Source: a bacterium (GTDB lineage: Bacteria; AUK180). From it: a stretch of 7,024 nucleotides of DNA. The position numbers were made by a program, and so were the translations under genes. The notes under the pieces were generated by a model. The model was given only the letters and a program-made list of their open reading frames with translations. It did not search any database and had not been told where the DNA came from. Of this stretch, positions 198-7,024 are shown piece after piece (positions within the stretch are counted from its first letter, which is position 1; the number at the start of each line of letters is the position of its first letter). The DNA is taken from positions 1 through 7,024 of the forward strand of contig JAUXGM010000114.1 in NCBI GenBank assembly GCA_030622125.1. Reading direction: 5' to 3'.

Positions 198-3100
198 TTA
201 TATCTTCCACCAGTTCTCAATATTGAAAAAATCCAATGGATGGGGTATGAAGCCATACAAATTCTCATTTGTAATAGTAAATTGTATAGAGTGGGTTAAA
301 AAAACGAGTGGAACATCTTCCTTAACGATCTTTTCAACTTTATCATATACGCTTGCCCGCTTTTCTTTATTAATGATTCTCATTGCCGAATCAAGAAGAG
401 TGTCGACTTCATTATTTCTGTAATAAAAATAATTCCCCGATACACCACAACTTTTTGAATGAAAAAGCGGATAATAAAAATTATCGGGATCGCCATTGTC
501 GGCGATCCAGCCTAAAAGAAATAGTTCAACTTCACCATTCTTACAAGCATTGATAAAATCATGCCATGACAATTCTATTAGATCAATTTCTATTTTAATG
601 CTTTTCAAAAATTCCTTAATTAAGTTTGCTTTTTTTCTCTCTAATTCGTTCTCCGAATAATATAATTTAAGCGGTTGCTTGATTCCATCTTTTAATCCCG
701 ATTTTTTAAGCAATTCTATTGATCTTTCAGGATCATATTCGTAATAATAGCTCTTTTCGGAATATCCGAAAATTCCAGGCGGTAAAACACTGTTTGCGAT
801 CATTTGGCTATTCTCATCCGTTTCCTTTAATATTTTTTTTCTATCAACTGCATAAGCAATTGCCTGTCTAACTTCTTTGAGTTTTAATTCGGGGCGGGAA
901 TCAACATTGATCCCAAGATATCTAATATCAAGTTGCGGAATATTATGAATATTGCCCTTTATCTCTATTTTTTTACTATTTAAAAGAGAAATAAAATTTG
1001 CTGATGGCACAAAAATATCCAATTTCCCTTTTATAAAGTTATTTTCCGATATTTTTTCCTCTTTTGTAATACTGATATTGATTCGGTCGAAATTATTTGA
1101 ATTAAGGAAATATTGTTCACTTTTTTTTAATATCACTTCTTCTTCATTGTATCTTTCAACAACAAAAGGACCGATTCCAACCGGTATTTCAGAATTACCG
1201 TATTTATTACCGGACCAAAGTATGGCAGCTGTTGTTGTACCAAGATTCAAGTAAAACGGAGTATACACATTCTTAAACTTCATTGCAAATCTTCGGTCAT
1301 CTATATAATAAAGCCCGTCAATAAAGTTACTTAGCCCTTTTTGGTAATCTGCGGCACCATCTAATGTTTCAAAGAAAAATGCGTTTGGGGAAGGATTGTT
1401 TCTATCGAATATCTTATAAAATGTATAGATGACATCCTTTGTCGTAAGAGGTTCTCCATTTGTAAAATAGAGATTTTTTCGTAATTTAAATTCGGCAACA
1501 AATCCCTTATCTTTTAATTCCCAACTATCAATAAGATGTGGTAATATCAAAAGTTCCGAGGATATTTTAAATAATCCGGAATAGAGAAAATTCATATATT
1601 TCACAGTAGTATTATCGGTTACTTCGGCAGGCACCCATGTCAACGGAAGGTTGGATAAATGAATATTCAATTCTCTTATCTTTTTTAGTCCGCTAAGTTG
1701 CCTTTTGGGTTTATAAGAACTAAAATCACTTAAAGTTGGGAAATTATTCAGTTCATCAATTAATTCTAATTGCCTATACACTATTTTATTGTACGATAAT
1801 ACTCTATGGAAGTATTTTTCGTTTTCCTTATAGATGCTTAATAATTCATTGATCTTGGAGAGTGAAATTGCTGAATAATTTTTCATATTTCCAATACTCT
1901 CATAAGTATTCTCAAAATCAATCTTTATTCTTTTATTATCTTCTATGATCTCACTGTTAATTTCATTAATATTGTTTAAAATTGAAAAAACCATTTCGAT
2001 GTTCACAAGTGCTTTCCCAATATAAAATTTAAAATTTGCAATAGCCAACAAACTTTCTTTTAAAAGTACCTGTATGCTCAAATTATATTTTGTGTTTTCT
2101 TTTGTAATATTTTTGATCTGATTGATAATTCCTAATATTTCATCTTTTATACCTGAATTTTTCTCCGCTTCCATTGATGAAAAGTAAGAAAGATCATTGA
2201 TCTTGTTAAGATTTTTATATATTTTTTCAAGTTTGTTGTTAAAACTGCCTAAAAAAACTTCATTTTGCAAAATATTATCTTCAAAATTATGCAAACTAAG
2301 TTTTAAATCGTTAAAAACAAAATTGTCTGCATTTATATCGGGAATCTTAATATTGTAAATGGGATCTAACAATTTTTCTAATTTTTCAAATTCTTTGATC
2401 AGATAAGAAAAATTTTCCATTGTTCCCTGAAAAAAATCATACTCCCCCGTTAGACTTTCAAGGTTGTTGAGATATTCTTTTTGAAGATATTTTAATTGTT
2501 TTTGGCTATTACTTAATGGTATTATTATTTTTTTTCTAAATGAAATAAAAAGGTTAAAAAAGTGATGAAAGCGATCGGTATCGACATCTATATTTACATT
2601 ACTTTTTTTCATAATATAAGGTATGAAATTTATGTTTTCAATATTTAAACACAAATTATTTGATATATATAAGTTTTCGTATATCTTTTCAAATGGGAAT
2701 AAATAGTATTCATTGTAGAATAAATCCTCGATTTTGGCAGCAGAAGTATTTGCGAGCATTTTCATTTTTGCTTTGAATACACTGTCGGTCTTTTTTTCAA
2801 GTTCAAGAAACATATTATTAAGATCATTACCAAATCGCGAATATTTATTTATTATTATATCATAGTTCTCAGTTTCTTTATGTGTAATTGTAATTTTTAT
2901 ATCAGCTGAACTGAATATTTCTCTTATTTTTTTTTCTAATTTTTTGTTTGTAGCCTTATTTAAAATTCGTATCTTATCTATATCAGTGCTTTTATCGGGA
3001 TCCTTAATTTTCAGTTCATAAACCTTATCGGTGGTTAACTTGTAACATTTAAAAATATTTGATAATAAAGTAATAATTGCTTTTCTTTTTTCAACGGAAA

Positions 3101-4667
3101 GCCTTCCCGATAAAAAAACATAATGATATCCTGATAAGAATTTTGTATCTCCTTCATTAAACGCTAAATCGTATTCATTATTTTGGTTATATTGTATGGT
3201 TTCCAAAAAGGGATTCGAAAAAAAGAAATAGTTATTTTTTCTTAAATGTTTTTTTTCAAAGTAAAATGGTCCGCTTGTTATTTTTTTATATGTTCTCGGA
3301 TAAGAATCCTTTTTTATAATTGGAAAAGAGATGCTTGCTAAATTTCCTATAAATTCCGTATTATTTTTATTCAAATGGATTACCAATGTATACTGATTTG
3401 CAAAAGTAATGCCTGATATTGTAGATACATCACCCTTTATATACTCATCATAACCTTTAATTATAGAAAATGACAGATCCTTGGATCTCTTTGCATATAT
3501 ATCAAACGAATACTTAATGTCCTCACTATCAAGTGGTGATCCATCTGAAAATTTAAGATCGGTTCTAATATTAAGGATCAGCATTTTTGTGGTATTTATA
3601 TATTCCCATTTTTCTAAGATCAATGGTATTCGTTCATTTCTTTCTATTTCAAGTAGATATGAAAAAAGCAATTTATTTAAAAAAGCATCCTTTAAGGTTT
3701 TGACATTGTAGGGATCATGATTTTCCATATTATCCTTAATAGATATGGTATCGGCAACAGTTGTCTCTCCTATAAAAAAATTCCCAACATTTGAAATATT
3801 GCTAAGTTCCGAAATAATGTTCCCTATTTCTTGATATATTGCATTAAATTCATCAAATTTCAGGGAGTTTAATTCACTATTCTCATCTAATTGTGTAAGG
3901 ACTTCATTTAAATTATTCTTAAGACCTAAAATGGCTATAAGTATGTTTTTAATAATTTTTTGAGAATCGTTTAATCGGGGAGCTACCTCAGATATTTTCT
4001 TATAAAAATCCATATAAATTGCTATATCACGATTAATTGTATTCAAATTGTCGCCTATTTTTTTATATAGGGTATTAAATTTTTTATTTTCAGTTCTTAA
4101 AGCTATGCTAAGTTCATTATAATTTGTAAAATCTTTTCTGAATTCTGAAATAATATCAATAATATTTTCAGAATAAAGTGTAATACTGTCGGCAATAATG
4201 GAAAGGGTCTTTTGTTGTTCTTCTCCTTTAAATGATTTAATTATGGTATTTAATGCAAGTTGTCTTACGGAATTTGCCATTTGATTAAGATTCTTTTCAT
4301 TATTTTTAAATTCATCGAAAAAGATTTCAAGTTTTTTGCTTGTTTCTTCAATATTCTTTGTTACAAAGTTGATCACTTCATTATATTGATTAATACCAAG
4401 AAAAAGGTTTAAAGATTTATTTAATTTTTGAGAAAGTTCCTCTGCCGAGCTTATAATTTCATCTGAATTATTTTTGAAATCTTTGGATTCCGAATCTATA
4501 TTTTCTAATAACATATCAATGTTATTGATCACTTCTTGCTGAATTTCATTGACATCTTTGTATCTATAAAAATGATTCTTAAAATTATTAAAAAAATTCT
4601 TTGAAAAATTGTATCTTTTGCCGATCAGATTTATTAGTGTATTTATATTTGCAATATCTATCTTCAC
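198..4667 (-). CDS. Large cytosolic protein: two tandem units of chemoreceptor-like helices plus family 5 solute-binding domain
   Basis: A 1489-residue protein that appears to be two copies of one unit. Unit 1: helical, coiled-coil-rich residues about 30-297, then a family 5 solute-binding-like domain about 300-690. Unit 2: helical residues about 700-985, then a well-preserved family 5 domain about 997-1489. The second domain has the family signatures LRKNLYFTNGEPLTTKDVIY (1062-1081), GIGPFVVERY (1164-1173), LGINVDSRP (1251-1259), VRQAIAYAVDRKKIL (1266-1280) and GWIADNGDPDNF (1386-1397), the last resembling DppA. The first domain keeps FSDGSPLDSEDIKYSFD (373-389) and SGPFYFEKK (465-473) but is degenerate later. 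Residues 137-162, starting LALNTIIKSFKGEE and reaching IIADSI, align with the signalling hairpin tip of methyl-accepting chemotaxis proteins (LALNAAIEAARAGE...VVADEV). There is no signal peptide, lipobox or clear membrane helix. The start is GTG at 4667, forming a GTGA overlap with the ATPase stop; the 25 in-frame codons back to TGA at 4745-4743 contain no ATG, GTG or TTG. Domain families are fairly certain. The function is unknown: it could be a soluble sensor or scaffold. SgrR is a known precedent for a cytosolic family 5 domain used in regulation. Confidence 0.88.
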   Translation of the reverse strand: MKIDIANINTLINLIGKRYNFSKNFFNNFKNHFYRYKDVNEIQQEVINNIDMLLENIDSESKDFKNNSDEIISSAEELSQKLNKSLNLFLGINQYNEVINFVTKNIEETSKKLEIFFDEFKNNEKNLNQMANSVRQLALNTIIKSFKGEEQQKTLSIIADSITLYSENIIDIISEFRKDFTNYNELSIALRTENKKFNTLYKKIGDNLNTINRDIAIYMDFYKKISEVAPRLNDSQKIIKNILIAILGLKNNLNEVLTQLDENSELNSLKFDEFNAIYQEIGNIISELSNISNVGNFFIGETTVADTISIKDNMENHDPYNVKTLKDAFLNKLLFSYLLEIERNERIPLILEKWEYINTTKMLILNIRTDLKFSDGSPLDSEDIKYSFDIYAKRSKDLSFSIIKGYDEYIKGDVSTISGITFANQYTLVIHLNKNNTEFIGNLASISFPIIKKDSYPRTYKKITSGPFYFEKKHLRKNNYFFFSNPFLETIQYNQNNEYDLAFNEGDTKFLSGYHYVFLSGRLSVEKRKAIITLLSNIFKCYKLTTDKVYELKIKDPDKSTDIDKIRILNKATNKKLEKKIREIFSSADIKITITHKETENYDIIINKYSRFGNDLNNMFLELEKKTDSVFKAKMKMLANTSAAKIEDLFYNEYYLFPFEKIYENLYISNNLCLNIENINFIPYIMKKSNVNIDVDTDRFHHFFNLFISFRKKIIIPLSNSQKQLKYLQKEYLNNLESLTGEYDFFQGTMENFSYLIKEFEKLEKLLDPIYNIKIPDINADNFVFNDLKLSLHNFEDNILQNEVFLGSFNNKLEKIYKNLNKINDLSYFSSMEAEKNSGIKDEILGIINQIKNITKENTKYNLSIQVLLKESLLAIANFKFYIGKALVNIEMVFSILNNINEINSEIIEDNKRIKIDFENTYESIGNMKNYSAISLSKINELLSIYKENEKYFHRVLSYNKIVYRQLELIDELNNFPTLSDFSSYKPKRQLSGLKKIRELNIHLSNLPLTWVPAEVTDNTTVKYMNFLYSGLFKISSELLILPHLIDSWELKDKGFVAEFKLRKNLYFTNGEPLTTKDVIYTFYKIFDRNNPSPNAFFFETLDGAADYQKGLSNFIDGLYYIDDRRFAMKFKNVYTPFYLNLGTTTAAILWSGNKYGNSEIPVGIGPFVVERYNEEEVILKKSEQYFLNSNNFDRINISITKEEKISENNFIKGKLDIFVPSANFISLLNSKKIEIKGNIHNIPQLDIRYLGINVDSRPELKLKEVRQAIAYAVDRKKILKETDENSQMIANSVLPPGIFGYSEKSYYYEYDPERSIELLKKSGLKDGIKQPLKLYYSENELERKKANLIKEFLKSIKIEIDLIELSWHDFINACKNGEVELFLLGWIADNGDPDNFYYPLFHSKSCGVSGNYFYYRNNEVDTLLDSAMRIINKEKRASVYDKVEKIVKEDVPLVFLTHSIQFTITNENLYGFIPHPLDFFNIENWWKI

Positions 4668-4682
4668 AGCGCGGTAACCCTT
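4664..4682 (-). promoter_or_regulatory. Translational coupling site: GTGA stop/start overlap with weak Shine-Dalgarno
   Basis: The ATPase ends in TGA (4666-4664) and the long gene starts at GTG (4667-4665), a four-base overlap. An AAGGG stretch at 4682-4678, ten bases before the GTG, is a weak and slightly distant Shine-Dalgarno. A weak site plus overlap suggests that the long protein is made mainly by ribosomes finishing the ATPase. Confidence 0.75.
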
Positions 4683-6355
4683 AATATTTCTGAAATAGTA
4701 GTAATACCCTTTACCGCCTTTATAACTCCGGCTTTTCTTAGATCATTTATTTCCTTTTCCGTTACATATTCTTTGATCTTAGCCGTTGATTCCTCATTTT
4801 CTATCATTTTTAATATTTTTTCATCAAAAGGAACTATCTCATAAATTGCTTCCCTGCCTAAATAACCTGTATTGTTGCACTCCTTGCAACCTTTTCCATT
4901 TGTAAAGATATAATCGGTAGGATTACCTTCAATGTCAAGTAATTTTAATTCTCTCTCGTTTGGTTCATAATATATTTTACAGTATGAGCAAACCCTTCTA
5001 ACAAGCCGTTGTGCAATAACACCAAGCAGTGTTGAAGAAATAAGGTAATCAGGAATACCCATATCTCTTAATCTGTCAATTGCACTTATTGCATCATTTG
5101 TATGAAGTGTAGAAAAAACAAGGTGACCCGTCAATGCCGCTCTAATAGCATTATCGGCTGTTTCTTTGTCCCTTATCTCACCTACCATAATAACATCAGG
5201 ATCCTGCCTTAAAATTTCCCGTAAGACGGCTGCGAAATCAAGCCCGATGAGATGATTTAAACTTATCTGATTAAAATCTTCATTGATAAGTTCCACAGGA
5301 TCTTCTACCGTCATTATATTCAGAGCCGGATCTTTTATATAGTTCAATGTTGCATATAGCGTTGTTGTTTTACCGGAACCGGTAGGTCCTGTTATCAAAA
5401 CAATTCCATTAGTATGATGAACAATCTTTTTATATCGCAGCAGTTCATTTTTTTCCATTCCAAGATCCGTTATGGATTTACTCAAATCTCTCGGATCAAG
5501 CAATCGTAGAACGATCTTTTCTCCGAATAAAGTCGGAATAATAGCAACTCTAAGTTCTACTGCTCTATCTTCGTGCTCTACCCTAATTCTCCCATCCTGA
5601 GGACGTCTTCTTTCGGATATATCAAGACCCGCCATAATTTTTACTCTTGCAATAATTGGAAAAACGAGTTCTTTGGGAAGTTTCCTAACTGTATGCAGGA
5701 TGCCGTCTATTCTCAATCTTATATTGATTCCGTGTCTTTTTGGTTCAATATGAATATCCGATGCCCTTTGGTCAATTGCTTTATGAATTATGAGATCTAT
5801 AAGTTTTATAACCGGCTGCTCTTTTTCTAATATCTTTGAGATTTGCGATATATCGGTTATGTTAAATTTTCCCATGCCGCTAATATCATTTAATGCCCTT
5901 TCTATCGATTCTGAAAACCCATAAAATTCATTTATTGTCCGGTTTATATCTCTATCCGAAGCAATATAGAAGTTTATTTTTTTTGGTAAATAATGTTTCA
6001 TAATATCTTCATATTCAATACTCGTGAGCAATTTTGAAATGGCAAGATCAACCTCATTTCCCTTAATATTAAAGCAGATCATTTTTAAATTTCTTGCAAA
6101 TGATTCCGGAAGATTGTTTGTGATCTTCGGGTCTATTTCTAAAGGGTCAAGACGAACAATGGGAATATTAAGTGTATCGGAAAGGGCTTTTTTATACTTG
6201 CTCTCAGAAAGATATTTCCTTCTTATCAGGATCATTTCAATATCTTCTTTACTTTTTTTGCCTTCTTCTTCGGCTAATTTGATTTTTTGTGGGTCTAAAA
6301 ATTTATTTTTTAGTAAGAATTCCGCCACTTTAACCTTTTCTCTGATTGGAAGCAT
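4664..6355 (-). CDS. GspE/PilB-family type II secretion / type IV pilus assembly ATPase
   Basis: A complete 563-residue protein of normal family length. The family forms a cytoplasmic hexamer whose ATP hydrolysis drives pilus or pseudopilus polymerisation at the inner membrane. Residues 1-145 fit the N-terminal MshEN/T2SSE_N regulatory domain. The linker and N2 domain follow, with RASDIHIEP at 197-205 and RRRPQDGRI at 249-257. The motor motifs are intact: Walker A GPTGSGKTT 323-331, Asp box TVEDPVE 349-355, Walker B DPDVIMVGEIRD 385-396, His box GHLVFSTLHTND 410-421. Cysteines 456, 459, 490 and 493 form the CxxC...CxxC zinc motif of GspE and PilB extension ATPases, which argues against PilT retraction ATPases. 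The start is ATG at 6355, preceded by GGAGG with a four-base gap. The stop overlaps the next gene. Whether it is PilB or GspE cannot be settled here because no pilin, platform or secretin gene is in view. N-terminal MshEN domains in some relatives bind cyclic di-GMP; whether this one does is untested. Confidence 0.95.
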   Translation of the reverse strand: MLPIREKVKVAEFLLKNKFLDPQKIKLAEEEGKKSKEDIEMILIRRKYLSESKYKKALSDTLNIPIVRLDPLEIDPKITNNLPESFARNLKMICFNIKGNEVDLAISKLLTSIEYEDIMKHYLPKKINFYIASDRDINRTINEFYGFSESIERALNDISGMGKFNITDISQISKILEKEQPVIKLIDLIIHKAIDQRASDIHIEPKRHGINIRLRIDGILHTVRKLPKELVFPIIARVKIMAGLDISERRRPQDGRIRVEHEDRAVELRVAIIPTLFGEKIVLRLLDPRDLSKSITDLGMEKNELLRYKKIVHHTNGIVLITGPTGSGKTTTLYATLNYIKDPALNIMTVEDPVELINEDFNQISLNHLIGLDFAAVLREILRQDPDVIMVGEIRDKETADNAIRAALTGHLVFSTLHTNDAISAIDRLRDMGIPDYLISSTLLGVIAQRLVRRVCSYCKIYYEPNERELKLLDIEGNPTDYIFTNGKGCKECNNTGYLGREAIYEIVPFDEKILKMIENEESTAKIKEYVTEKEINDLRKAGVIKAVKGITTISEILRVTAL

Positions 6356-6475: not shown

Positions 6476-7024
6476 TTACCTTATCAATGCGAATTTCCCT
6501 ACTTTTTTATTGTTTTTATCATCCTTAATTACATAGATATAGATACCGGATTTTAGATCGGTATCACTAAGTATTAGGGTGTATTCGGGTTTATACCAAT
6601 ACGGAAGTTCAAAAACAACATTACCTGCAATATTATAAAGAGTTATGGATGTGTGTTCGGAAAGCCCCGTAAAATGCAGTTCAGAAGTATTGTTGGCGGG
6701 ATTTGGATAAACATTTACAGAAGAAAGATCCGTTACCCTCACAGATGTTCTAAAATGAAATGTTTCAATGCTGTATGTTATGGAATTACCATCGCTTGCA
6801 TAGACTCGCCATTCATAGTCGGTAAAATTTTTTAATTCCGATAGAGGCGTATAAGCAGTTTGATCCGTCCAAAAAACCATAGGGTTACTAAAATCTCCAT
6901 AAGGAGCGATCTCAAGAGTATAAATCGGATTTTCCCAGGGGTCATTATCGGTTGAAGGTGTCCATGAAAATAACGGTGTAGCTACATTAAGAATTTCATT
7001 ATCAACCGGAAGTAAAAGGTTGAA
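6476..7024 (-). CDS. C-terminal part of a secreted protein with a fibronectin III-like domain and a type IX (Por) sorting domain; 5' end outside window
   Basis: The frame is open to the window edge and ends at TAA (6478-6476), giving 182 visible residues; the internal ATG at 6880 is not the true start. Residues 1-93 look like a fibronectin III/Ig-like beta-sandwich: an opening LLLPVDNE strand, an LFSWTPSTDND segment, YTLEIAP, then YEWRVYASDG and a closing FHFRT strand, the usual order in FCB surface proteins. Residues 104-182 match the Por secretion system C-terminal sorting domain (type A): VNVYPNPANN at the start, ITLYNIAGNVVFEL in the middle, LKSGIYIYVI, and a basic end KVGKFALIR. In the family this domain directs a Sec-exported protein across the outer membrane by the type IX system, usually with cleavage and attachment to the cell surface. 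The catalytic or binding part is not visible, so the specific role is unknown. The following gene is 120 bases away with its own promoter candidate, so operon membership is doubtful. Confidence 0.9.
   Translation of the reverse strand, partial: FNLLLPVDNEILNVATPLFSWTPSTDNDPWENPIYTLEIAPYGDFSNPMVFWTDQTAYTPLSELKNFTDYEWRVYASDGNSITYSIETFHFRTSVRVTDLSSVNVYPNPANNTSELHFTGLSEHTSITLYNIAGNVVFELPYWYKPEYTLILSDTDLKSGIYIYVIKDDKNNKKVGKFALIR

Follow-up and report, generated by a model that had tools for sequence, protein, structure and literature searches.

Why would a single polypeptide carry two family 5 solute-binding protein (SBP) domains in alternation with helical segments that resemble those of chemoreceptors, and lack any membrane anchor? 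The question is raised by one gene in a contig of 7,024 nucleotides (JAUXGM010000114.1 of assembly GCA_030622125.1, GTDB lineage AUK180), the whole of which is referred to here as the window. A first-pass annotation, made from the letters alone, had read positions 198-4667 as one chain of 1489 residues in which a helical segment plus a family 5 SBP domain occurs twice. The single chain was confirmed as an uninterrupted open reading frame on the (-) strand. The twofold layout was right too, and is clearest in a homologue from a sister family, with the correction that the first SBP domain (SBP1) of the 1489-residue protein is only partial. Judged from its homologues, the protein is a decayed tandem duplicate of a unit made of a methyl-accepting chemotaxis protein (MCP) hairpin followed by an SBP_bac_5 domain, and it is probably an intracellular sensor and not part of an importer. 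Its parts are as follows.

198..4667, (-) strand: whole fusion gene, 1489 aa, GTG start, stop at 198-200, a single unbroken open reading frame
3783..4667, (-) strand: coil 1, residues 1-295, homologous to coil 1 of the sister-family protein (blastp 2.7e-10; hhalign 95%), helical in a low-confidence model
3975..4397, (-) strand: hairpin 1, residues 91-231, with a turn at 145-148 in a low-confidence model
4224-4262, (-) strand: tip of hairpin 1, QLALNTIIKSFKG, residues 136-148, with Lys where canonical MCPs have Glu
3168..3782, (-) strand: N-terminal part of SBP1, residues 296-500 (SBP_bac_5 3.1e-17; hhalign 99.5% against the family's SBP profile)
2598..3167, (-) strand: remnant at the place of the C-terminal part of SBP1, residues 501-690, with undetectable SBP similarity and 6% of positions invariant in four homologues
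1668..2597, (-) strand: coil 2, residues 691-1000, in register with coil 2 of the sister-family and second-phylum proteins, with weak profile support (E 0.003-0.009)
1890..2315, (-) strand: hairpin 2, residues 785-926, with a turn at 828-833 in a low-confidence model
2160-2186, (-) strand: tip of hairpin 2, YFSSMEAEK, residues 828-836, with a Glu shared by every homologue that spans the site
201..1667, (-) strand: second SBP domain (SBP2), residues 1001-1489, nearly complete SBP_bac_5 (2.6e-70; HbpA 3m8u 2.8e-52; DppA 1dpp 3.1e-48)
477..512, (-) strand: motif GWIADNGDPDNF of SBP2, residues 1386-1397, which lies over DppA GWTGDNGDPDNF in the 1dpp alignment

Tandem duplication and decay of SBP1

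The sister-family homologue (genome G006) is 1604 residues long and carries two complete SBP domains, and its halves align over 785 residues with an E value of 3.4e-66. Searched with the MCPsignal profile, its coil 1 scored above the curated cut-off (4e-19) and its coil 2 below it, the whole protein giving 3.5e-22. The 1489-residue protein aligns with this homologue end to end, and we read the chain as a tandem duplicate on the strength of the homologue's intact pair of SBP domains, its MCPsignal matches and the alignment of its halves along their whole length.

Homologues are present in all seven analysed genomes of the source phylum. Those of three genomes in the same family (G002, G003 and G004) cover the full length of the protein at 45-50% identity; the homologue in G001 falls into two frames, broken at a stretch of eight A (L017, about 8541-8548), where a sequencing error and a real frameshift are indistinguishable, and the one in G005 is interrupted by contig ends. 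Since the source genome is a draft metagenome assembly (192 contigs, 2.08 Mb, 96% complete), two genes might have been joined artificially into a chimera. This explanation is refuted by the full-length homologues in several other genomes, and its probability is negligible.

Against the Pfam curated cut-off for SBP_bac_5 of 32.4 bits, SBP2 scored 236.7 bits and SBP1 62.6 bits, and these two domains are the sole SBP_bac_5 matches in the source genome. The match to SBP2 (residues 1043-1405) covers 361 of the 368 profile positions, whereas that to SBP1 spans positions 3-173 only. The N-terminal parts of the two domains are related, with a Smith-Waterman score of 115 compared to a mean of 37 (standard deviation 6, maximum 76) in 1000 shuffles, and a profile-profile probability of 97.9% by hhalign; within this significant alignment lie the landmarks that had first suggested a repeat, IRTDLKFSDG against LRKNLYFTNG and GPFYFE against GPFVVE. 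A third pairing proposed at the C-terminal ends, ENINFIPY against ENLYGFIPHP, did not hold: when residues 501-690 were compared with residues 1201-1489, 135 of 1000 shuffles scored equally well, which is the level of chance. No part of residues 501-690 matched the SBP profile (hhalign 0.7%), so that the profile match anticipated for residues 300-690 was obtained for about 300-500 and not for the remainder. As to conservation, 27-33% of positions are invariant among the four homologues in hairpin 1, hairpin 2 and SBP2, the highest values along the chain, and the 6% in residues 501-690 is the lowest.

SBP2 retains what appears to be a binding site. Its GW..DNGDPDNF motif is kept in the source phylum and in all ten proteins of a second phylum described below, and the first Asp of the motif corresponds to Asp408 of DppA; the position of DppA Arg355 is not conserved in the 1dpp alignment. 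Both DppA residues we take to have roles in dipeptide binding. At the same position SBP1 of the sister family reads DSTSFDSLF, and thus even a complete SBP1 is without the DNGDPDNF motif. SBP2 is likely to be the sensor domain.

Searching a profile of the unit against 386 genomes gave matches that run through the homologous coil in the source phylum and in one other small phylum only. There, all ten analysed genomes carry a protein of about 1120 residues with the order coil 1-coil 2-SBP, and SBP1 was found in none of these proteins; the two coils are thus retained as a pair even where SBP1 is lacking. The N-terminal part of the second-phylum protein matches coil 1 of the sister family at 1.7e-8, and its SBP matches sister-family SBP2 at 35% identity (4e-103). 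In a phylogenetic tree the second-phylum SBPs group next to SBP2, and sister-family SBP1, the complete form, falls outside them, with moderate support only (81/70, 86/89). An old tandem, followed by decay of SBP1 in the source family and its loss in the second phylum, would fit this distribution; the alternative history is one in which SBP1 was inserted into an older coil 1-coil 2-SBP protein. Two sets of matches were discarded: an hhalign match between the two second-phylum coils was an artefact of overlapping cuts, and the long frames matched in G030, G072 and G117 were not receptor fusions but either run-on frames or an SBP with a permease after it.

Receptor-type hairpins and their tips

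That the coils of the 1489-residue protein are MCP-type hairpins by descent is argued through the homologues, because the protein aligns end to end with the sister-family homologue and its coil 1 matches coil 1 of that protein. MCPsignal exceeds its cut-off in the homologues of three genomes (G005, G006 and G135), and the match in G135 (1.3e-13) falls on the receptor tip, as it does in G006. For coil 2, score contributes less to the MCP-type assignment than register and the tip motif do. The first-pass description of the coils as receptor-like is thus upheld by the homologues and not by the protein itself, which gave no MCPsignal match.

Generic coiled coils unrelated to chemoreceptors, which look MCP-like by periodicity only, would account for that missing match, and would also be compatible with the finding that coils 1 and 2 of the source family are not alike by profile comparison. 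Yet such coils would not be expected to yield the values of 3.5e-22 and 1.3e-13, over the curated cut-off and on the receptor tip, or to be collinear with a membrane receptor of the type of Myxococcus xanthus McpK, and we consider this explanation highly improbable.

The two tips have diverged in a conserved manner. Where the receptor signature LNAAIEAA has its first Glu, hairpin 1 has Lys in all seven source-phylum genomes and Lys (six), Arg (three) or Met (one) in the second phylum, so that Lys or Arg is found in 16 of the 17 genomes of both phyla together. Hairpin 2 keeps the Glu in every protein that covers this site.

Chemoreceptors act as homodimers of identical hairpins. Pairing of hairpin 1 with hairpin 2 within one chain is a plausible arrangement for the present protein, given that both coils persist alongside a single SBP in the second phylum and that the tips differ conservedly. 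The hairpins would then probably pack into the four-helix bundle that ordinary receptors form as homodimers. An extended version of this proposal, which we put forward tentatively and hold at somewhat less than even probability, is a single-chain heterodimeric chemoreceptor, in which the hairpins would be specialised with complementary tip charges, one sensor would be live and the other dying or lost, and asymmetry would be built in. An AlphaFold2 model of residues 1-1030, made from three sequences, reached a predicted local distance difference test (pLDDT) score of 36, which is poor. In it the segments around the SBP matches are helical, hairpins 1 and 2 are the best-scored parts, and the chain reverses at 145-148 and 828-833, the places that correspond to the turns of receptor tips. 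A model of SBP1 alone, made in the same way, reached a pLDDT of 33.

Sensor, importer component or pilus regulator

DppA and HbpA are periplasmic binding proteins of importers, and they are the proteins nearest to SBP2 in sequence. The 1489-residue protein might thus be an ordinary binding protein of an ATP-binding cassette (ABC) importer, with a long N-terminal extension and exported by an unrecognised route. However, its N-terminus (MKIDIANINTLINLIGKRYNFSK) and hydropathy scan revealed neither the export signal or lipobox of such a protein nor any hydrophobic segment suited to a signal peptide or membrane helix: the highest 19-residue Kyte-Doolittle mean is 1.28, too low for a membrane helix, in agreement with the first-pass statement that the chain has no membrane anchor. 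Furthermore, a Dpp/Opp-type permease was not found in the source genome, a draft at 96% completeness, where the three BPD_transp_1 matches comprise a Ugp-type pair plus a single SsuC-like one. The homologues have MCP hairpins, and the gene overlaps that of a cytoplasmic ATPase. These findings make an exported importer protein very unlikely.

Two observations touch on this subject. The sister-family genome encodes a lone SBP_bac_5 protein of about 497 residues (L061, 1769-3259), apparently also without a signal peptide. In the cluster G000:C88 (L053, 2519-7891), a Ugp-type permease pair, an SBP_bac_8 lipoprotein and a transmembrane MCP are encoded together, as in several genomes of the phylum, and the cluster represents an importer with its own chemoreceptor. 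Its permeases were considered as Dpp-type partners of the fusion protein and rejected, being Ugp-type and supplied with their own SBP lipoprotein.

Chemotaxis components, by comparison, are at hand. The source genome has seven matches to CheW-domain genes, two of them in frames of CheA length, together with MCPs, and CheW occurs in all genomes of both phyla. It is because CheA and CheW are present and a Dpp/Opp permease went undetected that the fusion protein is probably an intracellular sensor.

The neighbouring gene bears on its possible output:

4664..6355, (-) strand: pilB-like ATPase gene (MshEN + T2SSE), with a four-base overlap (GTGA) between its stop and the start codon of the fusion gene

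The overlap, GTGA or TTGA by open reading frame coordinates, recurs in all five genomes of the source family. This ATPase is one of several in the source genome, where the type II/IV secretion ATPase family has seven matches. Because translation would be coupled to pilB in the source family, the output may concern type IV pili. Two further genes were noted around the fusion gene. Directly downstream of it in both families lies a gene for an O-antigen-ligase-like multi-pass membrane protein (L003 6431-9325, L017 3821-6814, L018 5224-8187, L016 5527-6780), convergent with the fusion gene in one family and co-directional in the other. Window positions 6476-7024, (-) strand, encode a C-terminal fragment, cut by the contig end, of a protein bearing a Por_Secre_tail sorting domain of the type IX secretion type.

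The conserved overlap, taken together with the degenerate hairpin tips and the lack of an MCPsignal match in the 1489-residue protein, would also suit a pilus-machine scaffold or regulator whose coils no longer bind CheW/CheA and which positions or regulates PilB directly, SBP2 being a ligand-gated or ligand-free docking domain. Under that explanation it would be hard to see why the hairpins are among the best-conserved parts, why the SBP2 binding motif is retained in both phyla, and why the sister family matches MCPsignal well yet has no adjoining pilB. We regard this possibility as a serious one, though clearly on the unlikely side.

We lean, with slightly better than even confidence, to a chemoreceptor-type sensor, soluble and cytoplasmic, that goes back to an McpK-like unit duplicated in tandem within the chain, with SBP2 sensing, hairpins paired within the chain and an output through CheW/CheA or a similar partner. 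In this model, the McpK-like unit (an MCP signalling hairpin and SBP_bac_5), minus its membrane and HAMP part, would have been duplicated in tandem. SBP2, with its DppA-like predicted binding site, would close on an intracellular solute, probably one that bears an amino group, and closure would transmit a change down the coils; SBP1, which has lost its C-terminal half in the source family, is probably structural or vestigial. The paired hairpins would then signal to CheW/CheA or a similar partner, or in the source family act on the co-encoded pilus ATPase.

Several points weigh against such a sensor. MCPsignal had no match at E<=1 in the 1489-residue protein. The canonical MCP tip LNAAIEAARAGE, which an MCP elsewhere in the source genome carries, is replaced here by QLALNTIIKSFKGEE and DLSYFSSMEAEKNSG; with tips deviating in this way, contact with CheW/CheA may be lost. 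The AlphaFold2 models are too poor to bear on coil pairing or on the fold of SBP1. Lastly, pilB is not a neighbour in either of the other two groups: in the sister family the gene upstream is an HD-domain-like one, and in the second phylum the homologue (L081-L089) is preceded by a murI-like gene and in most cases followed by an rluD-like gene.

Comparison with known systems

SBP2 aligns with DppA and HbpA over nearly its full length and keeps the motif with DppA Asp408; the protein differs from them in having no export signal and in not keeping the Arg355 position. A natural receptor with two diverged hairpins per chain would allow one to ask which hairpin signals and whether asymmetry is needed. 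The set of homologues also displays stages in the fate of a duplicated domain, SBP1 being intact in the sister family, half decayed in the source family and absent in the second phylum.

SBP-type domains inside the cell have precedents, and the present protein would be another case of a periplasmic-type SBP_bac_5 domain apparently serving as an intracellular sensor, kept in every analysed genome of two small phyla. A survey found that many SBP-profile proteins are cytosolic or are sensor domains of signalling proteins (PMC9602780). SgrR and DsvR are transcription factors in which a helix-turn-helix (HTH) is joined to SBP_bac_5 in an intracellular regulator (PMC13060122). They share with the 1489-residue protein the placement of SBP_bac_5 inside an intracellular regulatory protein, and differ in their HTH, in place of which it has a receptor-type coiled hairpin; with the SBPs from G006 and G135, the NCBIfam SgrR model gave only weak scores that were far under its cut-off. 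FrzCD, the cytoplasmic chemoreceptor of M. xanthus (PMC12077210, PMC3945109), is likewise membrane-free, and is in contrast a single 417-residue unit with a recognised MCP signalling domain and no SBP domain.

The closest relative in design is McpK of M. xanthus (MXAN_6456; PMC3945109, Table 1), a 1048-residue MCP listed with three membrane segments and a bacterial extracellular solute-binding domain, and the only entry for an SBP_bac_5-chemoreceptor fusion found in a literature coverage from which subscription papers were mostly absent. Within that same coverage no counterpart was found for a tandem form that is free of membrane segments, has asymmetric tips and loses SBP1 in stages. The architecture, which the first-pass annotation did not recognise, is therefore known as a single unit of MCP and solute-binding domain, and, within this coverage, unmatched in its tandem membrane-free form with a decayed SBP. 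A protein in genome G034 (P0006), which we place in the McpK group from its length and domain positions, both near those of McpK, is collinear with each half of the sister-family homologue (3e-45 and 2e-39); it has close relatives in 18 of the 59 genomes of its order, and the same layout occurs in G359. The McpK order, hairpin and then SBP, is thereby seen in both halves of the sister-family protein and, through the alignment with it, in the 1489-residue protein. An N-terminal membrane anchor of the McpK type is missing from the latter, its best segment scoring 1.28 as against 2.13 and 1.89 in P0006. Like McpK, then, the protein combines MCP signalling and solute-binding domains in a single chain; where McpK has three transmembrane segments and one unit, it lacks a membrane helix and comprises two units, with tips that have diverged and an SBP1 that has decayed.

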